Source: Sedimentibacter sp. zth1 (lineage in GTDB: Bacteria; Bacillota; Clostridia; Tissierellales; Sedimentibacteraceae). From it: a stretch of 64,000 nucleotides of DNA. How positions within the stretch are numbered: the first letter of the stretch is position 1; every line of letters starts with the position of its first letter. The stretch lies in assembly GCF_017352195.1 (NCBI RefSeq), contig NZ_CP071445.1:2170001-2234000 (forward strand), given 5' to 3'. Below, one piece after another: positions 20,217-31,357 of this stretch. Position numbers and translations under genes: made by a program. Below the pieces are notes generated by a model that was not told the origin of the DNA, searched no databases, and saw only the letters and a list, made by a program, of their open reading frames with translations.

Positions 20217-21582
20217 ATTTTAACATAACTTTAGCCTTATACATTTCTATGTCGGCTCTTTTTAATAATTCCTTAAATTCCATTCCATCATCTCTAAATG
20301 TTGCTATACCATAGCAAAACGAACAAGTTATACTGCAATTAGACATAGATATATACTCTTCTTTCATTTCACTTAATATGTTATCTAAACTATCTTTAAT
20401 ATTGTTTATTGACTTATCATAATAAACGCTTACAAATTCATCTCCGCCTATCCTAGCTACTACATCATTTTTATCTGAAATGCTAAAAAATTTGTCTGCC
20501 ACATGCTTTAAAACATTATCTCCACAAAGGTGCCCATATTTGTCATTTATTATTTTTAAGTGATTAACATCAATTAAAACTAAATTCAACGTTTTATTAT
20601 ATAAAACTGCATTGCTTTTTAAAACATTAAATTGTTTTTCAAGAAACATTCTATTATACAATTTAGTTAAATAATCATGATTAGCATAAAAAATTTGATC
20701 ACTGTATAATAAATAATTTGATATCGCAATTTCAATACTTGATTTTAAAAATTTCATCAATCTTACATCATCTTTATCAAAAGAATTGATTTTAACAGAA
20801 TCTATACAAATCATACCATAAATATTATCCTTTATGATTATAGGTGAAATCAAGCTAGACTTGATATATTGTTTTCTACCATAGCATGTTTCTATAGGAT
20901 AAAAATCGACTATCTTTGATAAATCACTAATATTTTTAACATCATTCATTTTACCATTTGTTGATCTGTACAAAAAAGTTTCTTCTTGTTTTATAGAAAA
21001 TTTTTTTATTTTTTCTTCATAACCAATATGAGCAACAACTTCAAACTCACTATCTTTCTTTATCATAATTGTACCAATACAATTATTGTTAAATGTCTTT
21101 AATGCTGTTTCAAGCGTCAAATTATATATATCATTAATATCATTAAATTTAACTATGTTTTCCGTAATTTTAAGCATTAAATTTCTTACATTTGTCATTG
21201 ATATTAGTTGGTTTTTAGTTATTACATTTTCTGTTACATCTGCAAATTGCATAAGCAAACAATTTTTATCATTAAAAATTACAGGCTTAATTAAAACATT
21301 AGCATATAACAATTTTCCCTTATTATTTCTTATAGAAACTTCATTTTTACTAAAGTTTTTATTTTTATCAAATAAATTTTTAATCTGCTCCATTAAAATT
21401 TCATCATTAAATAATTCATCAATATACAGTTCAGATATATTTTTAAAACAACTATATGTGCTAATAAAAATTTTATTTGCAAACAAAATTTTCTCTTTAT
21501 TAAAAATTATAATTGGAGCAAGTATTAAATTATTAAAGGTTTTAAAATCTTCACCCGTTATAACTAAAGTTTTATTATTCAT
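20215..21582 (-). CDS. PAS-GAF-GGDEF diguanylate cyclase
   Basis: 455 aa, cytosolic. Residues 15-125 look like a PAS domain, 135-285 like a GAF domain (SSLISPIIIKDNIYGMICIDSV), and 295-455 form a GGDEF domain with ANHDYLTKLYNRMFLEKQF, LVLIDVNHLKIINDKYGH and the intact active site RIGGDEFVSVYY. The inhibitory I-site appears absent, because the position preceding the active loop reads D-K-N-D instead of RxxD. It should make cyclic di-GMP in response to a small-molecule or redox cue. Start supported by AGGAG. Confidence 0.87.
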   Translation of the reverse strand: MNNKTLVITGEDFKTFNNLILAPIIIFNKEKILFANKIFISTYSCFKNISELYIDELFNDEILMEQIKNLFDKNKNFSKNEVSIRNNKGKLLYANVLIKPVIFNDKNCLLMQFADVTENVITKNQLISMTNVRNLMLKITENIVKFNDINDIYNLTLETALKTFNNNCIGTIMIKKDSEFEVVAHIGYEEKIKKFSIKQEETFLYRSTNGKMNDVKNISDLSKIVDFYPIETCYGRKQYIKSSLISPIIIKDNIYGMICIDSVKINSFDKDDVRLMKFLKSSIEIAISNYLLYSDQIFYANHDYLTKLYNRMFLEKQFNVLKSNAVLYNKTLNLVLIDVNHLKIINDKYGHLCGDNVLKHVADKFFSISDKNDVVARIGGDEFVSVYYDKSINNIKDSLDNILSEMKEEYISMSNCSITCSFCYGIATFRDDGMEFKELLKRADIEMYKAKVMLK

Positions 21583-21693
21583 GCTTAACTCCTAATATTT
21601 ACATTTGTATAATTTTAACATAATTATATAATTTACAATAATTTCAAATAATAATATTAATTTATAATAAAATTTATATTTTATAATTAAAAA

Positions 21694-21723
21694 GCTATTG
21701 CAAACAATCTAGTTTACAATAGC
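21694..21723 (-). terminator. Terminator of the Sec-glutaredoxin gene
   Basis: A 12-base stem (GCTATTGTAAAC against GTTTGCAATAGC, one G-T pair) with a six-base loop is followed on the minus strand by TTTTTAATT. It starts eight bases after the glutaredoxin stop. Confidence 0.8.
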
Positions 21724-21730
21724 CCCCTAA

Positions 21731-21958
21731 TTACCCTAATAAAGTTTCTAATTTATCTCTGTCAAAACCTTCTACTACTTCATCATCAACATATATAATA
21801 GGAACTCCCATAAACCCTAATGACATAAGTTCTTTTCTTGAATTCATATCAGTTGAAACATTTTTTTCTTCAAATTCAACTTCTTTTTCTGCCAAATAGT
21901 CCTTAGCAGTATGACAATGCGGTCAAGTATTACTTGTGTAAATTTTTACTTTCTTCAT
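21731..21958 (-). CDS. Glutaredoxin-like selenoprotein (in-frame UGA read as Sec)
   Basis: A 75-codon gene interrupted by one TGA at 21923-21925 (codon 12). Reading it as selenocysteine gives [20 protein letters not shown], with U-P-H-C in place of the CPxC redox motif of NrdH/glutaredoxin proteins. The rest follows the fold: [36 protein letters not shown], including the cis-Pro in GVP and the GFD segment (split here: [10 protein letters not shown] and [11 protein letters not shown]). AAGGAG precedes the ATG by six bases and a strong terminator follows the final TAA. A hairpin suited to SECIS lies 13 bases after the TGA. Coding potential continues undisturbed past the TGA, which argues against a pseudogene. 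Likely a thiol-disulfide/selenenylsulfide reductase or reductant for a cytosolic enzyme. The Sec machinery is not in this window. Confidence 0.88.
21889..21909 (-). promoter_or_regulatory. Candidate bacterial SECIS element
   Basis: Thirteen bases after the in-frame UGA the mRNA can fold CUGCUAA with UUGGCAG (seven pairs, one G-U) around the loop GGACUAU. Distance to the UGA, stem length and a G at the start of a small loop fit bacterial SECIS elements recognised by SelB. Confidence 0.65.
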
Positions 21959-22189
21959 AATTTTCTCCTTGTTCTATTTTGATTATTTTTTCTTAATTTC
22001 TAATTATTATTTGTATAGTTTTTTTCTTAATATATATTTTTTTTCATATATTAACATTTATTATACTATATTACTATATTTTATTACTTTATTCAATGCT
22101 ATTATTTTAATTCATGCACATATTGTTTTCATTAGAATATTATGCATATATATGTTTGTATTTTTATTTTAATGAAAGGACTTGATTTA

Positions 22190-23065
22190 ATGAAAGATTG
22201 TACAGTAAAAATTACATTTCCAAAAAAAGTATTAAAAGGTGCAGGACTTAAAAAAACTTCATTTTTACCTTCATGGATATATAATATTAAAATATCAATA
22301 AAAAATAATAGTGAATATTTTAAAATATGCTCTTTTAACTCTACGTTTGCAAACGGAATTACATATCTAAATAATTTAAGTGTTAATGGACCAGATTATG
22401 ATATAATTAATTTTTTAAAATTTGTTGAACCAAACTTAAAAGTAGGTAATGATAATCTTATTGTTTTTGCTAATAATTTCAAACTATCACCTCTTTCAGA
22501 AAATATAATAACATTTGATATAGCCATTAATAACAACTATACATCTAGCTCTATAGAAAATTCAGGCGCAAAAATATCTCACAAAACAACTTTAAATATT
22601 AACACTTATTTACTAAACGACGGAAATATTTATTCTGATAACATTAGCACTGAAGCAATGGATTATTTAATTGAAGTGAATTCTGATACTGATAAACTTA
22701 AAATAAATGAAAAGTCTAAAATATATATTAATTGCAAGGCAGGACAATATGACTCAATTAGGAAGGTATACTTGAAGTGTTCACTAGATAGTGGGTTTGA
22801 TTATTTAACTGGTACCACAAATATAGAACCAAAAAACTTATATCTTTCAAACAACAGAACAATATTAAAGTGGTTCTTTGACATTGTTAATCAAGGTGAA
22901 TGCAAAAAAATTGGTTTTAAAGTTATGTCTAAAAGCAAATACAAAGATGAAAGCACTGTAAAAATCGGAGATAACCTTATCAATAGCATAAATTCAAACG
23001 GAGTAAATAACTCTACATATACACAATGTCCTGATACATGTAGACAAGGTTTTTTTATTGTATAG
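22190..23065 (+). CDS. Unknown protein with beta-rich repeat-like architecture
   Basis: 291 aa from the ATG preceded by GAAAGGA; no signal peptide or membrane segment. The composition (Asn, Ile, Ser, Thr, Lys) and alternating strands in IKISIKNNSEYFKICSFNS and KSKIYINCKAGQYDSIRKVYLKCSLDSG resemble DUF11/CARDB-type beta-sandwich domains in coat or surface proteins, but I cannot assign a family. The C-terminus YTQCPDTCRQGFFIV has a CxxxC pair. Single gene with its own terminator. A spore-coat or surface role is a guess. Confidence 0.7.
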   Translation: MKDCTVKITFPKKVLKGAGLKKTSFLPSWIYNIKISIKNNSEYFKICSFNSTFANGITYLNNLSVNGPDYDIINFLKFVEPNLKVGNDNLIVFANNFKLSPLSENIITFDIAINNNYTSSSIENSGAKISHKTTLNINTYLLNDGNIYSDNISTEAMDYLIEVNSDTDKLKINEKSKIYINCKAGQYDSIRKVYLKCSLDSGFDYLTGTTNIEPKNLYLSNNRTILKWFFDIVNQGECKKIGFKVMSKSKYKDESTVKIGDNLINSINSNGVNNSTYTQCPDTCRQGFFIV

Positions 23066-27869: not shown

Positions 27870-29231
27870 TTAAACTTCCAAATTTTCATAGAGTTGTGCT
27901 ATTTGACCCCATGTAGCAGGTCCAATAAGCCCTGTATCTATTCCTAAATATTCTCTTTGTATAGCTCTAACAGCTTCTTCGGTTTGTTCATCAAATATAC
28001 CTGTTACAGTTACTTTAGGTATAGAAGGATAGTATTGGGAAATTTTTTCTAAGTAAGTTTGCATTAACGTCACACTTTTATCTCCCATGCCTTTTGATAG
28101 TAAATATCCTGGATAAATAGTTTTGTTTTTAAAACACCCTTCTGGTATTTCAGAATAAATTTTTTTATAAGTTTTATCTAATGTTGCCAATGTCTGTATA
28201 CCAACTACACCATCTACAATTATATTAAATTTTTTTTCAATTGCTTTTACAGCTTCTGTAGTTTCTGGTCCAAAGTAACTTGTCAATTCTATCAATGGAA
28301 TATCACCGTAGTAACATGCTATTGCACGTACATAATATTGTATTAATCTTACCCAAATGCCAGAATCACCTTCTTGCCAAGAAATAGCGAAAGAACTTTC
28401 TATTTCTTCAGGCTCAATACCCTCCGATATAAGTTCACTTACTCCTTTCACGGCATTATATATATATTTTATTTTATACCATGTTGCACTTCCTATAATT
28501 CCATCCTGTGTTAAGTTAAATGCCTTTTGAAAAGCTTTTACTGCATCCTCTGTATCCTTTCTAAAAATTCCATCAGGATTTTCTATTTTGGGAATCGCTG
28601 GATAATTTTCTCTAATTCTGTTTAATTCCCGTTGCATAATGAAAACATCTCGCCCAAAGCTACCTAATCGCAATGGATATAATGGGTAAGATTCAAAATT
28701 GGCATTTATAGGAACGTCTGTAACAATATCAATATCTTCACCATAGTAATATTTTAAAATATCATATGGTGAGTAACCACTTTCTGCTAGAGTTACTGTC
28801 TCCCACTGTAATAAGCCGTCACAAGTTACATTCACTCCATCGCAATAAGAAGCAGCAATTGGTTCTATTTTACCCTGTCGTACAATATAACTATTAAAAA
28901 TTTCATCAACAATTTTAGATATATTTTCAAAAATATCTCTTCCTGGCACAAAAGATTGGTCAAATTGTGTTGAATTTGTTATGTCAAAATCATATCCGCG
29001 AATACGATATTGTTCTGTAAAGATTCTGTTTAATGCAAAAGTTATTTGAGCATAAATATTTGCCCTAACTGCACTTTCAGGCCAGGTAGGATAAATTTCA
29101 CTAGATGCAACATTTTTAATATACTCTGGAAAGGAAACAATCACATTTTCAGCAGGTTCATCGGGTTTTCCTAGGTGAACTGATATACTTTCTGGAATAA
29201 ACGGAACGTCAGGTCGACTAATTATAACCAT
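27870..29231 (-). CDS. SleC-like spore cortex-lytic enzyme, copy A (without pro-domain partner)
   Basis: 453 aa starting at MVIISRPDVPFIPESISVHL, after GTGGTGAT. The first 200 residues match the SpoIID-like catalytic domain of SleC (YIKNVASSEIYPTWPESAV, GYDFDITNSTQFDQSF, YCDGVNVTCDGLLQW), which is a lytic transglycosylase that opens spore cortex peptidoglycan during germination. Two or three PG_binding_1 repeats follow (LRLGSFGRDVFIMQRELN, EGDSGIWVRLIQYYVRA, KGMGDKSVTLMQTYLEK). It is the same length as copy B at 29548-30909 and largely identical. The upstream SleC pro-region gene is reduced here to a relic (29245-29384), so this copy may be unregulated or non-functional. Confidence 0.83.
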   Translation of the reverse strand: MVIISRPDVPFIPESISVHLGKPDEPAENVIVSFPEYIKNVASSEIYPTWPESAVRANIYAQITFALNRIFTEQYRIRGYDFDITNSTQFDQSFVPGRDIFENISKIVDEIFNSYIVRQGKIEPIAASYCDGVNVTCDGLLQWETVTLAESGYSPYDILKYYYGEDIDIVTDVPINANFESYPLYPLRLGSFGRDVFIMQRELNRIRENYPAIPKIENPDGIFRKDTEDAVKAFQKAFNLTQDGIIGSATWYKIKYIYNAVKGVSELISEGIEPEEIESSFAISWQEGDSGIWVRLIQYYVRAIACYYGDIPLIELTSYFGPETTEAVKAIEKKFNIIVDGVVGIQTLATLDKTYKKIYSEIPEGCFKNKTIYPGYLLSKGMGDKSVTLMQTYLEKISQYYPSIPKVTVTGIFDEQTEEAVRAIQREYLGIDTGLIGPATWGQIAQLYENLEV

Positions 29232-29244
29232 TTTATCACCACTC

Positions 29245-29384
29245 TTAACATAATATTTTTGGATCTTGTTTATGAATCGTATTAATATCATCTATTGTAC
29301 TAAGTAATAAGTTGATTATCTACATAGATGTAATATTCTCAAACACACTTATATTAGATATATTTGGTCTTTCAACATGGTCAT
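29245..29384 (-). pseudogene. Relic of the SleC pro-domain gene ahead of copy A
   Basis: Reads NISVFENITSM-stop-IINLLLS, matching DISVFENITSMQSINLLPN at the end of the intact pro-domain gene (30914-31357). A TAG sits at 29320-29322 and a TAA at 29245-29247; the first two thirds of the gene are missing. Nucleotide similarity to the intact copy is evident on both sides. Confidence 0.75.
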
Positions 29385-29547: not shown

Positions 29548-30909
29548 TTACACTTCTAAATTTTCATATAGTTCTGCTATTTTACTCCATGTAGCAGGTC
29601 CAATAAGCCCTGTATCTATTCCTAAATATTCTCTTTGTATCGCTCTAGCCGCAGCTTCAGTTTGTTCATCAAATATACCTGTAACACTTACTTTAGGTAT
29701 AAACGGATAGTATTGATAAATTTTTTCTAAATAAGTTTGCATCAACGTCACATTTTTATCCCCCATGCCTTTTGATAGTAAATATCCTGGGTAGATAGTT
29801 TTGTTCTTAAAACAACCTTCTGATATTTCTGAATAAATTTTTCTATAAATTTTGTCTAGTACTGCCCATGTTTGTATACCAACTACACCGTCTATAATTA
29901 TATCAAATTTTGTTTGAAGTGCCTTGACGGCTTCTGTAGTTTCTGGTCCAAAGTAACTTGTCAATTCTATCATTGGGATATCTCCGTAATAACATGCAAT
30001 CGCACGTACATAGTATTGTATTAATCTAACCCAAATGCCAGAATCACCTTCTTGCCAAGAAATAACGAAAGGACTTTCTATTTCTTCAGGCTCAATACCC
30101 TCTGAAATAAGTTCACCTAACCCTTTCACAGCATTATATATATATTTTATTTTATACCATGTTGCACTCCCAATAACTCCATCCTGCGTTAAGTCAAATG
30201 CTTTTTGAAAAGCTTTTACTGCATCCTCTGTGTCTTTTCTAAAAATTCCATCAGGATTTTCTATTTTAGGAATTGCTGGATAATTTTCTCTAATTCTGTT
30301 TAATTCTTGTTGTATGATGAAAACATCTCTCCCAAAACTACCTAATCGTAATGGATATAAAGGATAAGATTCAAAATTTGCATTAACAGGAACATCCGTA
30401 ACAAGGTCTATATCTTCACCATAGTAATATTTTAAAATGTCATATGGAGAGTAACCATCTTCTGCTAGAGTTACTGTCTCCCACTGTAATAAGCCGTCAC
30501 AATCAACATTCACTCCATCGCAATAAGAAGCAGCAATTGGTTCTATTTTACCTTGGCGTACAATATAACTATTAAAAATTTCATCAACAACTTCAGATAT
30601 ATTTTCAAAAATATCTCTTCCAGGCACAAAAGATTGATCAAATTGTGTTGAATTTGTAATGTCAAAATCATATCCGAGGTTTCTATAGCGTTCTGTAAAA
30701 ATTCTGTTTAATGCGAAAGTTATTTGAGCATAAATATTTGCTCTAATTGCACTTTCAGGCCAAGTAGGATAAATTTCACTAGATGCAACATTTTTAATAT
30801 AAGCTGGAAACGAAACAGTCACATTTTCAGCAGGTTCATCTGGCTTTCCTAGATGAACTGTTACATTTTCTGGAATAAACGGAACATCAGGGCGACTAAT
30901 TATAACCAT
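29548..30909 (-). CDS. SleC-like spore cortex-lytic enzyme, copy B
   Basis: 453 aa starting MVIISRPDVPFIPENVTVHL, preceded by GTGGTGAAGAA. It holds the SleC SpoIID-type lytic transglycosylase region (YIKNVASSEIYPTWPESAI, DFDITNSTQFDQSFVPGR) and PG_binding_1 repeats. SleC proteins in Clostridium are single chains with an N-terminal pro-sequence cleaved by Csp proteases; here the pro-region is a separate gene (30914-31357) ending four bases upstream. The two would have to associate, or the TGA boundary be bypassed, to mimic a normal pro-enzyme. Function in cortex hydrolysis at germination is inferred from family. Confidence 0.83.
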   Translation of the reverse strand: MVIISRPDVPFIPENVTVHLGKPDEPAENVTVSFPAYIKNVASSEIYPTWPESAIRANIYAQITFALNRIFTERYRNLGYDFDITNSTQFDQSFVPGRDIFENISEVVDEIFNSYIVRQGKIEPIAASYCDGVNVDCDGLLQWETVTLAEDGYSPYDILKYYYGEDIDLVTDVPVNANFESYPLYPLRLGSFGRDVFIIQQELNRIRENYPAIPKIENPDGIFRKDTEDAVKAFQKAFDLTQDGVIGSATWYKIKYIYNAVKGLGELISEGIEPEEIESPFVISWQEGDSGIWVRLIQYYVRAIACYYGDIPMIELTSYFGPETTEAVKALQTKFDIIIDGVVGIQTWAVLDKIYRKIYSEISEGCFKNKTIYPGYLLSKGMGDKNVTLMQTYLEKIYQYYPFIPKVSVTGIFDEQTEAAARAIQREYLGIDTGLIGPATWSKIAELYENLEV

Positions 30910-30913
30910 TTCT

Positions 30914-31357
30914 TCACCACATTCCACATAAGCTTTGTTGATCTCGTTTATTATTTGCATTTGTATTTTCCATCGTATTAGGTAATAAATTGATTGACTG
31001 CATAGATGTAATATTCTCAAATACACTTATATCAAACACATCTTTTGAAAAAAAATTTGGTGCTTCAATACAAGCATTGTATTCCGAATATATCTTGGGG
31101 TTTCCAGGTGTTGTTGAAAGTTTGCCACTAACTGTTGGTAAAGGTAAAGGATCTGTTTTTCCATCGATATCAGTCGTTAAAACTTTAGAAACATAATATT
31201 CATCCCCTATTAATTTACTAACAGTTACTTTTGCATTAGTAACTGGCTGTATGCCATAAATCGGTGAATCATGGTATACCTGAAATGTGATATATCCAGT
31301 TTTGGGATTTTCAGTTAAATATATTTCCAACATTTCTTGAAAGTTAGCATAACTCAT
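30914..31357 (-). CDS. SleC-type pro-region as a separate protein
   Basis: 147 aa, starting at MSYANFQEMLEIYLTENPKT after AAGGAGG. The fold is a carboxypeptidase-regulatory-like beta sandwich (TGYITFQVYHDSPIYGIQPV, AKVTVSKLIG, LTTDIDGKTDPLPLP), then DVFDISVFENITSMQSINLLPN. This sequence and order match the N-terminal pre-pro region of clostridial SleC, directly ahead of its catalytic part. The TGA stop lies at a ribosome site for the next gene (GGTGAAG), which implies coupled translation. A fused SleC would need a change of frame at this point, so either it evolved into two subunits or frameshifting occurs. Confidence 0.75.
   Translation of the reverse strand: MSYANFQEMLEIYLTENPKTGYITFQVYHDSPIYGIQPVTNAKVTVSKLIGDEYYVSKVLTTDIDGKTDPLPLPTVSGKLSTTPGNPKIYSEYNACIEAPNFFSKDVFDISVFENITSMQSINLLPNTMENTNANNKRDQQSLCGMW

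Follow-up and report, generated by a model that had tools for sequence, protein, structure and literature searches.

A short glutaredoxin gene on the minus strand of the Sedimentibacter sp. zth1 genome is interrupted by a single in-frame TGA at its active site. The question raised by this locus is whether the codon is read as selenocysteine (Sec) or is the mark of a broken gene. The stretch of DNA that was analysed, called here the window, has a length of 64,000 nucleotides (contig NZ_CP071445.1, positions 2,170,001 to 2,234,000) and belongs to a single-contig genome of 3.13 Mb with a completeness of 98.8%. Judged by comparison of homologous sequences, the UGA in the window glutaredoxin very probably encodes Sec.

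Gene structure and family assignment

The features of the locus and of the selenocysteine system are collected in Table 1. The glutaredoxin gene begins with ATG at 21956-21958 and ends with TAA at 21731-21733, and the TGA is its sole internal stop codon. Read-through translation gives an active site of the form T-UGA-P-H-C. The original prediction, made from the letters of the sequence, placed the TGA at the first active-site Cys of a frame that is otherwise undisrupted down to the TAA, has a ribosome site and a terminator, and contains a seven-pair hairpin that starts 13 bases after the UGA. All of these points stand.

Table 1. Location of the features discussed in the text (the first five in positions of the window, the last four in positions of the contig)
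Feature	Location	Strand	Basis
Putative Sec-glutaredoxin coding region, 75 residues and TAA	21731-21958	minus	Read-through translation; PF00462 and TIGR02196 profile scores
In-frame UGA, probable Sec codon 12, first residue of UPHC site	21923-21925	minus	Alignment column of 112 distinct homologous rows
Ribosome binding site AAGGAG, six bases 5' of ATG	21965-21970	minus	Direct reading
SECIS-like hairpin, loop GACUA at 21897-21901	21889-21909	minus	-7.5 kcal/mol; kept in relatives L088, L090, L073
Terminator-like hairpin, starts inside stop codon	21684-21733	minus	Folding: -24.9 kcal/mol, z -8.13
tRNA-Sec (selC)	within 1213061-1218503		63.4 bits (gathering 47), anticodon UCA
selB	within 1213061-1218503		401.6 bits, over curated cut-off
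selA	within 1213061-1218503		615.4 bits, over curated cut-off
selD	within 1213061-1218503		390.2 bits, over curated cut-off

The terminator-like hairpin consists of 22 pairs, with the U run forming its outer G-U part, and its stability was reached by none of 200 shuffles. A simple terminator scan listed nothing at the gene, although folding gives this strong hairpin. The promoter scan returned 7 sites against 7.1 expected, and no promoter is therefore claimed. The gene is apparently transcribed alone. A match to SNORD111, obtained with Rfam at a permissive threshold in the section 21500-22300, was rejected as a chance match (E 0.68, with 20.9 bits where the gathering score is 46).

It had been expected that a standard gene caller would miss or truncate this gene. 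Under the ordinary code no open reading frame of at least 60 amino acids is indeed listed for it, so that small Sec genes are expected to be missed or shortened in annotation. The glutaredoxin gene was the only candidate returned by a read-through scan of the window, which called for an ATG start, at least 60 amino acids, at most two TGA codons and less than 35% overlap with open reading frames of at least 100 amino acids. Elsewhere in the window, two large and highly similar proteins are encoded in tandem on the minus strand (27870-29291 and 29548-31026), which may be peptidoglycan-binding-repeat proteins.

In the profile searches the U of the window protein was entered as C. The protein is a member of Glutaredoxin PF00462 with 63.4 bits, over the cut-off of 22.9. 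Among the NCBIfam models YruB TIGR02196 scores best, at 83.6 bits where the cut-off is 88.55, and two relatives also fall under this value (83.6 bits for the UGA form L021 and 87.2 bits for the Cys form L049). The scores for NrdH-redoxin TIGR02194 (62.3 bits against 85.75) and for NF041212 (51.4 bits against 66) are likewise below the respective cut-offs.

The active-site codon in homologues

Homologous rows were collected by aligning every frame to the window protein with a score of at least 110, and rows with identical 210 bases were merged; they cover loci L020-L095 and L097-L126, with one row or more per locus. In this alignment of 112 distinct rows, codon 12 is TGT in 56, TGC in 29 and TGA in 27, with no other codon; the TGA regions were fetched deliberately, so that 27/112 is no prevalence, and the rows are related by descent, so that the counts are not independent. 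The residue aligned with the UGA is thus either Cys (85 rows) or the UGA itself, in agreement with its predicted place at the first active-site Cys.

At a limit of E 1e-8, 23 of the 27 genomes of the family have a homologue, as do at least 237 of the 249 genomes of the order. With L088 as the query and a limit of 1e-20, matches were found in 28 of 391 genomes of the class sample. The window genome has a single glutaredoxin match at E 1e-8, and its genus is represented by this one genome in the comparison. One relative, from a different genus of the family, has the UGA at the same codon and is 70% identical to the window protein. In the order, selA scores over the cut-off in all 17 genomes with a confirmed UGA form, compared with 163 of 249 genomes overall; the UGA genomes number at least 17 among the matches listed, and the nine UGA rows that come from named records or from beyond the order do not enter the tally.

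The original prediction had named random disruptions in close relatives as the sign of a decaying pseudogene. In the section after the UGA, the window gene was compared with 25 other UGA forms, giving pN values of 0.19-0.47 and pS values of 0.50-0.91; pN is below pS in 25 of 25 comparisons, with pS near saturation. The rows used were motif-extracted, the duplicate loci L062, L075, L084 and L087 and seven more were left out, and a spurious antisense row at L111, the one TGA row in that set that lacked a hairpin, was dropped by eye. By this measure, purifying selection seems to act on the UGA homologues past the codon, and they do not resemble debris.

A second type of Sec-glutaredoxin, with a UPYC site, occurs among relatives in the same family (L045, L046, L047 and L048 with UGA, L043 with Cys). 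Proteins of this type have a C-terminal tail with two Cys pairs, and the tail presumably resembles a zinc ribbon. The NCBIfam match of L046 is limited to the glutaredoxin part.

The SECIS-like hairpin

The hairpin of the window gene, CUGCUAAG-GACUA-UUUGGCAG, begins exactly 13 nt 3' of the UGA. It has 7 pairs with the loop GGACUAU, or 8 pairs with the loop GACUA if the closing G-U pair is counted. The bacterial SECIS model, as set out in the legend of Fig. 2A of PMC13188914, has a loop of 3-9 nt, a stem of 4-16 pairs, a G in loop positions 1-2 located 16-37 nt from the UGA, and an energy limit of <= -7.5. The window hairpin fits this model with a loop of 5, a stem of 8 and a loop-initial G after 21 nt, and its energy of -7.5 kcal/mol is exactly at the limit.

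A stretch of 46 nt containing the hairpin has a fold z of -2.48, and 4 of 200 shuffles were equally stable. The chance background was assessed in 12 neighbouring genes. Of their 4197 in-frame codon positions, 988 are followed by some hairpin of the model shape, 71 by one at <= -5 and none by one at <= -7.5. Synonymous recodings of the window peptide reached the hairpin energy in 163 of 2000 cases (179 of 2000 in a repeat run), and for the window gene taken alone this test is weak. Of 17 UGA forms, 12 had their energy attained in fewer than 100 of the 2000 recodings and the remaining five (L020, L046, L047, L073 and L076) in at least 100. Codon frequencies from ten window genes were applied to all rows in this test; the rows were motif-extracted, and the duplicate loci L062, L075, L084 and L087 were left out.

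Under the SECIS constraints minus energy, every one of the 27 UGA forms has a hairpin, but only 10 of the 85 Cys forms have one. The numbers fall to 20 and 1 with a threshold of -5 kcal/mol, to 12 and 0 with one of -7 kcal/mol, and to 9 and 0 at the model limit of -7.5 by a contiguous-stem reckoning. The Fisher value of 5e-18 for the association of hairpin and UGA overstates the case because the rows are related.

The UGA forms L088 and L090 share the hairpin of the window gene at the same place, and so does L073, minus the outermost pair. Among these four sequences two hairpin pairs are changed on both sides; this covariation was equalled by 37 of 500 shuffles and is therefore suggestive only. 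A different hairpin, located about 10 nt further on and built on UACCUUUCGGAGAAAGGUA or its variants, is found in L021, L074 and L076-L083. The SECIS-like element is thus placed at differing positions within one family. Two Cys rows, L085 and L086, also have hairpins at the distal place (GUAUCUUUCGGAAAAAGGUAU in L086), and it is possible that these are relics of a lost SECIS.

The selenocysteine machinery

If UGA is decoded as Sec, the genome should carry selA, selB, selC and selD, as was originally predicted, and all four are present. They form one block of the contig, in which a response-regulator-like open reading frame separates the tRNA-Sec from selB. The selD gene has one in-frame TGA of its own, in the motif GUAAK, and a hairpin that fits the model follows it at -7.9 kcal/mol. 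The gene for glycine reductase selenoprotein A, grdA, is present with one in-frame TGA. No hairpin was found after the TGA of grdA, a known kind of selenoprotein, by the rule used here; this is in line with the remark in PMC13188914 that some SECIS elements depart from the model. In the section 366883-368667 of the contig (L127, L096), 432 bases separate the end of a thioredoxin reductase gene from the grdA match that comes after it, and the two look as if they belong to a glycine reductase gene cluster.

Alternative explanations

The UGA might have arisen by a random nonsense mutation in a Cys glutaredoxin that has since become a decaying pseudogene. Cys is found at this codon in 85 of the 112 homologues, one base change converts TGT or TGC to TGA, and the hairpin energy alone is not rare for the window peptide, as the 163 of 2000 recodings indicate. 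However, the same TGA occurs in 27 distinct sequences, each with a hairpin, and these span a second genus of the family as well as further families in the order and in the class. A second lesion is absent, while the start, ribosome site, stop and terminator are intact; pN remains below pS after the UGA in every one of the 25 comparisons, and the Sec system is present in the genome. Decay of the gene is very improbable in the light of these observations. An error of sequencing or assembly at one base is more improbable yet: the comparison includes a single genome of the genus, so that the base stands by itself within the genus, but the same TGA is found in independent assemblies, and beside it lies a SECIS-like hairpin that is absent from 75 of the 85 Cys rows.

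The UGA might also serve solely as a regulated stop, or specify another amino acid by near-cognate read-through. It is well known that termination competes with Sec insertion at the UGA of selenoprotein genes, and this gives the proposal some ground. It has very little chance of being correct, however, as the codon occupies the position of the catalytic Cys, a tRNA-Sec with a UCA anticodon and SelB are present, and the hairpin accompanies the TGA across species. The UGA is considered below as a Sec codon.

Exchange of selenocysteine and cysteine

The glutaredoxin family has seen repeated exchange between Sec and Cys. The best tree, with 76 rows, requires 14 changes of the Sec/Cys label (12-15 over the bootstrap trees), and at least five changes are forced by well-supported branches; the tree is weak, being made from the earlier rows (26 UGA, 50 Cys) of short proteins with few columns, and only the number of changes is used. 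L067 (Cys, TGT) and L073 (UGA), from one genus, share 190 of the 210 bases that surround the codon. The Cys form L067 retains the SECIS-like hairpin of L073, as it should if the switch was recent. PMC1794560 describes remnants of SECIS-like hairpins in Cys forms.

In several genomes, among the matches listed, a Cys copy adjoins a Sec copy. Sec- and Cys-glutaredoxin genes lie close together at L074, L075, L076, L080, L082 and L083, and at L078 and L079 there are three copies each. The proximity of these genes suggests duplication followed by Sec/Cys specialisation. With close Sec and Cys forms that have or lack the hairpin, this family makes the origin and loss of SECIS traceable. If true, the moving SECIS and the repeated exchange of Sec and Cys would constitute a natural experiment on these events.

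Proposed function

The gene product would be a small dithiol glutaredoxin in which the catalytic first cysteine is replaced by selenocysteine. By analogy with the known bacterial Sec system, the parts of which are present in the genome, SelA and the selenophosphate made by SelD would turn Ser-tRNA-Sec into Sec-tRNA-Sec; SelB would bind this molecule and the hairpin 13 nt past the UGA and deliver Sec at codon 12. The selenolate may then attack an oxidised thiol of a client protein, with Cys15 resolving the bond. This second step is modelled on the fold and on glutaredoxin-1 (Grx1) of Clostridium oremlandii, which we take to be the same organism as Alkaliphilus oremlandii.

The final step is a guess, to which we give slightly less than an even chance: the oxidised form would be reduced by the thioredoxin reductase system and not by glutathione, because a thioredoxin reductase is present and glutamate-cysteine ligase PF04262 has no match in the window genome (0/1). 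The control search with PF04262 matched 2 of 14 genomes, and the search covered this one profile among the routes to glutathione, which also include PF04107 and uptake. MsrA was considered as a client of the window glutaredoxin and rejected, as PF01625 has no match in the window genome (0/1), while the same search matches 12 of 14 control genomes. In view of the lack of PF01625 and PF04262 matches and the presence of thioredoxin reductase, the product would be a thiol-disulphide reductase that acts through a selenolate, with a chemistry modelled on that of relatives, and the thioredoxin system may recycle it. The host would gain a redox protein whose client is probably other than that proposed for C. 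oremlandii.

A wider proposal is that the Sec-glutaredoxin works without glutathione and MsrA as the only glutaredoxin of its type (E 1e-8) in a genome with glycine reductase selenoprotein A, that it is recycled by thioredoxin reductase, and that within its family the SECIS shifted by about 10 nt amid the repeated exchange of Sec and Cys. Taken as a whole, this proposal is speculative and rather doubtful.

Comparison with known selenoproteins

The nearest solved structures by sequence are PDB 7c10 (102 bits, residues 2-75, CPHC site) and 7c12 (98 bits). These entries, together with 7c13, are probably those of C. oremlandii Grx1, because they have CPHC and CPHS chains and a C16S mutant is described; 7c10 would then be the dithiol form and 7c12 the C16S form. 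PMC7642778 describes Grx1 as a native selenoprotein, giving its active site as U(or C)PXC and its selenocysteine as catalytic. According to the same paper, MsrA of that organism, of which Grx1 is the proposed reductant, is also a native selenoprotein. Based on sequence similarity, Grx1 appears to be the nearest characterised relative of the window protein. The two differ in that Grx1 is proposed to reduce its own MsrA, whereas the window genome has no PF01625 match to this protein.

The UXX-star or distant Grx-like selenoproteins (NF041212, NF041114) are, like the window protein, glutaredoxin-like with Sec or Cys at the same place. However, that family has a UxxT site, while the window protein keeps the second active-site Cys (UPHC). 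A table of PMC9312934 assigns its distant Grx-like protein 1 to the YruB model TIGR02196, and the window protein too scores best with that model.

No paper on the window gene was found in the open-access literature, in titles and the beginnings of abstracts, for selenoproteins or glutaredoxins of Sedimentibacter, Tissierella or Peptoniphilaceae. The family itself is well established. Ten Sec-glutaredoxin sequences were reported in the Sargasso Sea set (PMC1088965), so the family has been described since 2005, and Sec-glutaredoxin (Grx, PF00462, UxxC) is placed under the experimentally verified kinds in tables of PMC13188914 and PMC9312934. The original prediction was right that such proteins occur in clostridia, as Grx1 of C. 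oremlandii (PMC7642778) and the two Sec-glutaredoxins of Alkaliphilus metalliredigenes (PMC1794560) demonstrate, but the surprise that it implied was too high. We found no essential difference between the window protein and the prokaryotic Sec-glutaredoxin family. The window gene is very probably one more Sec-glutaredoxin, of a kind already known in clostridia and in one case studied in structure.
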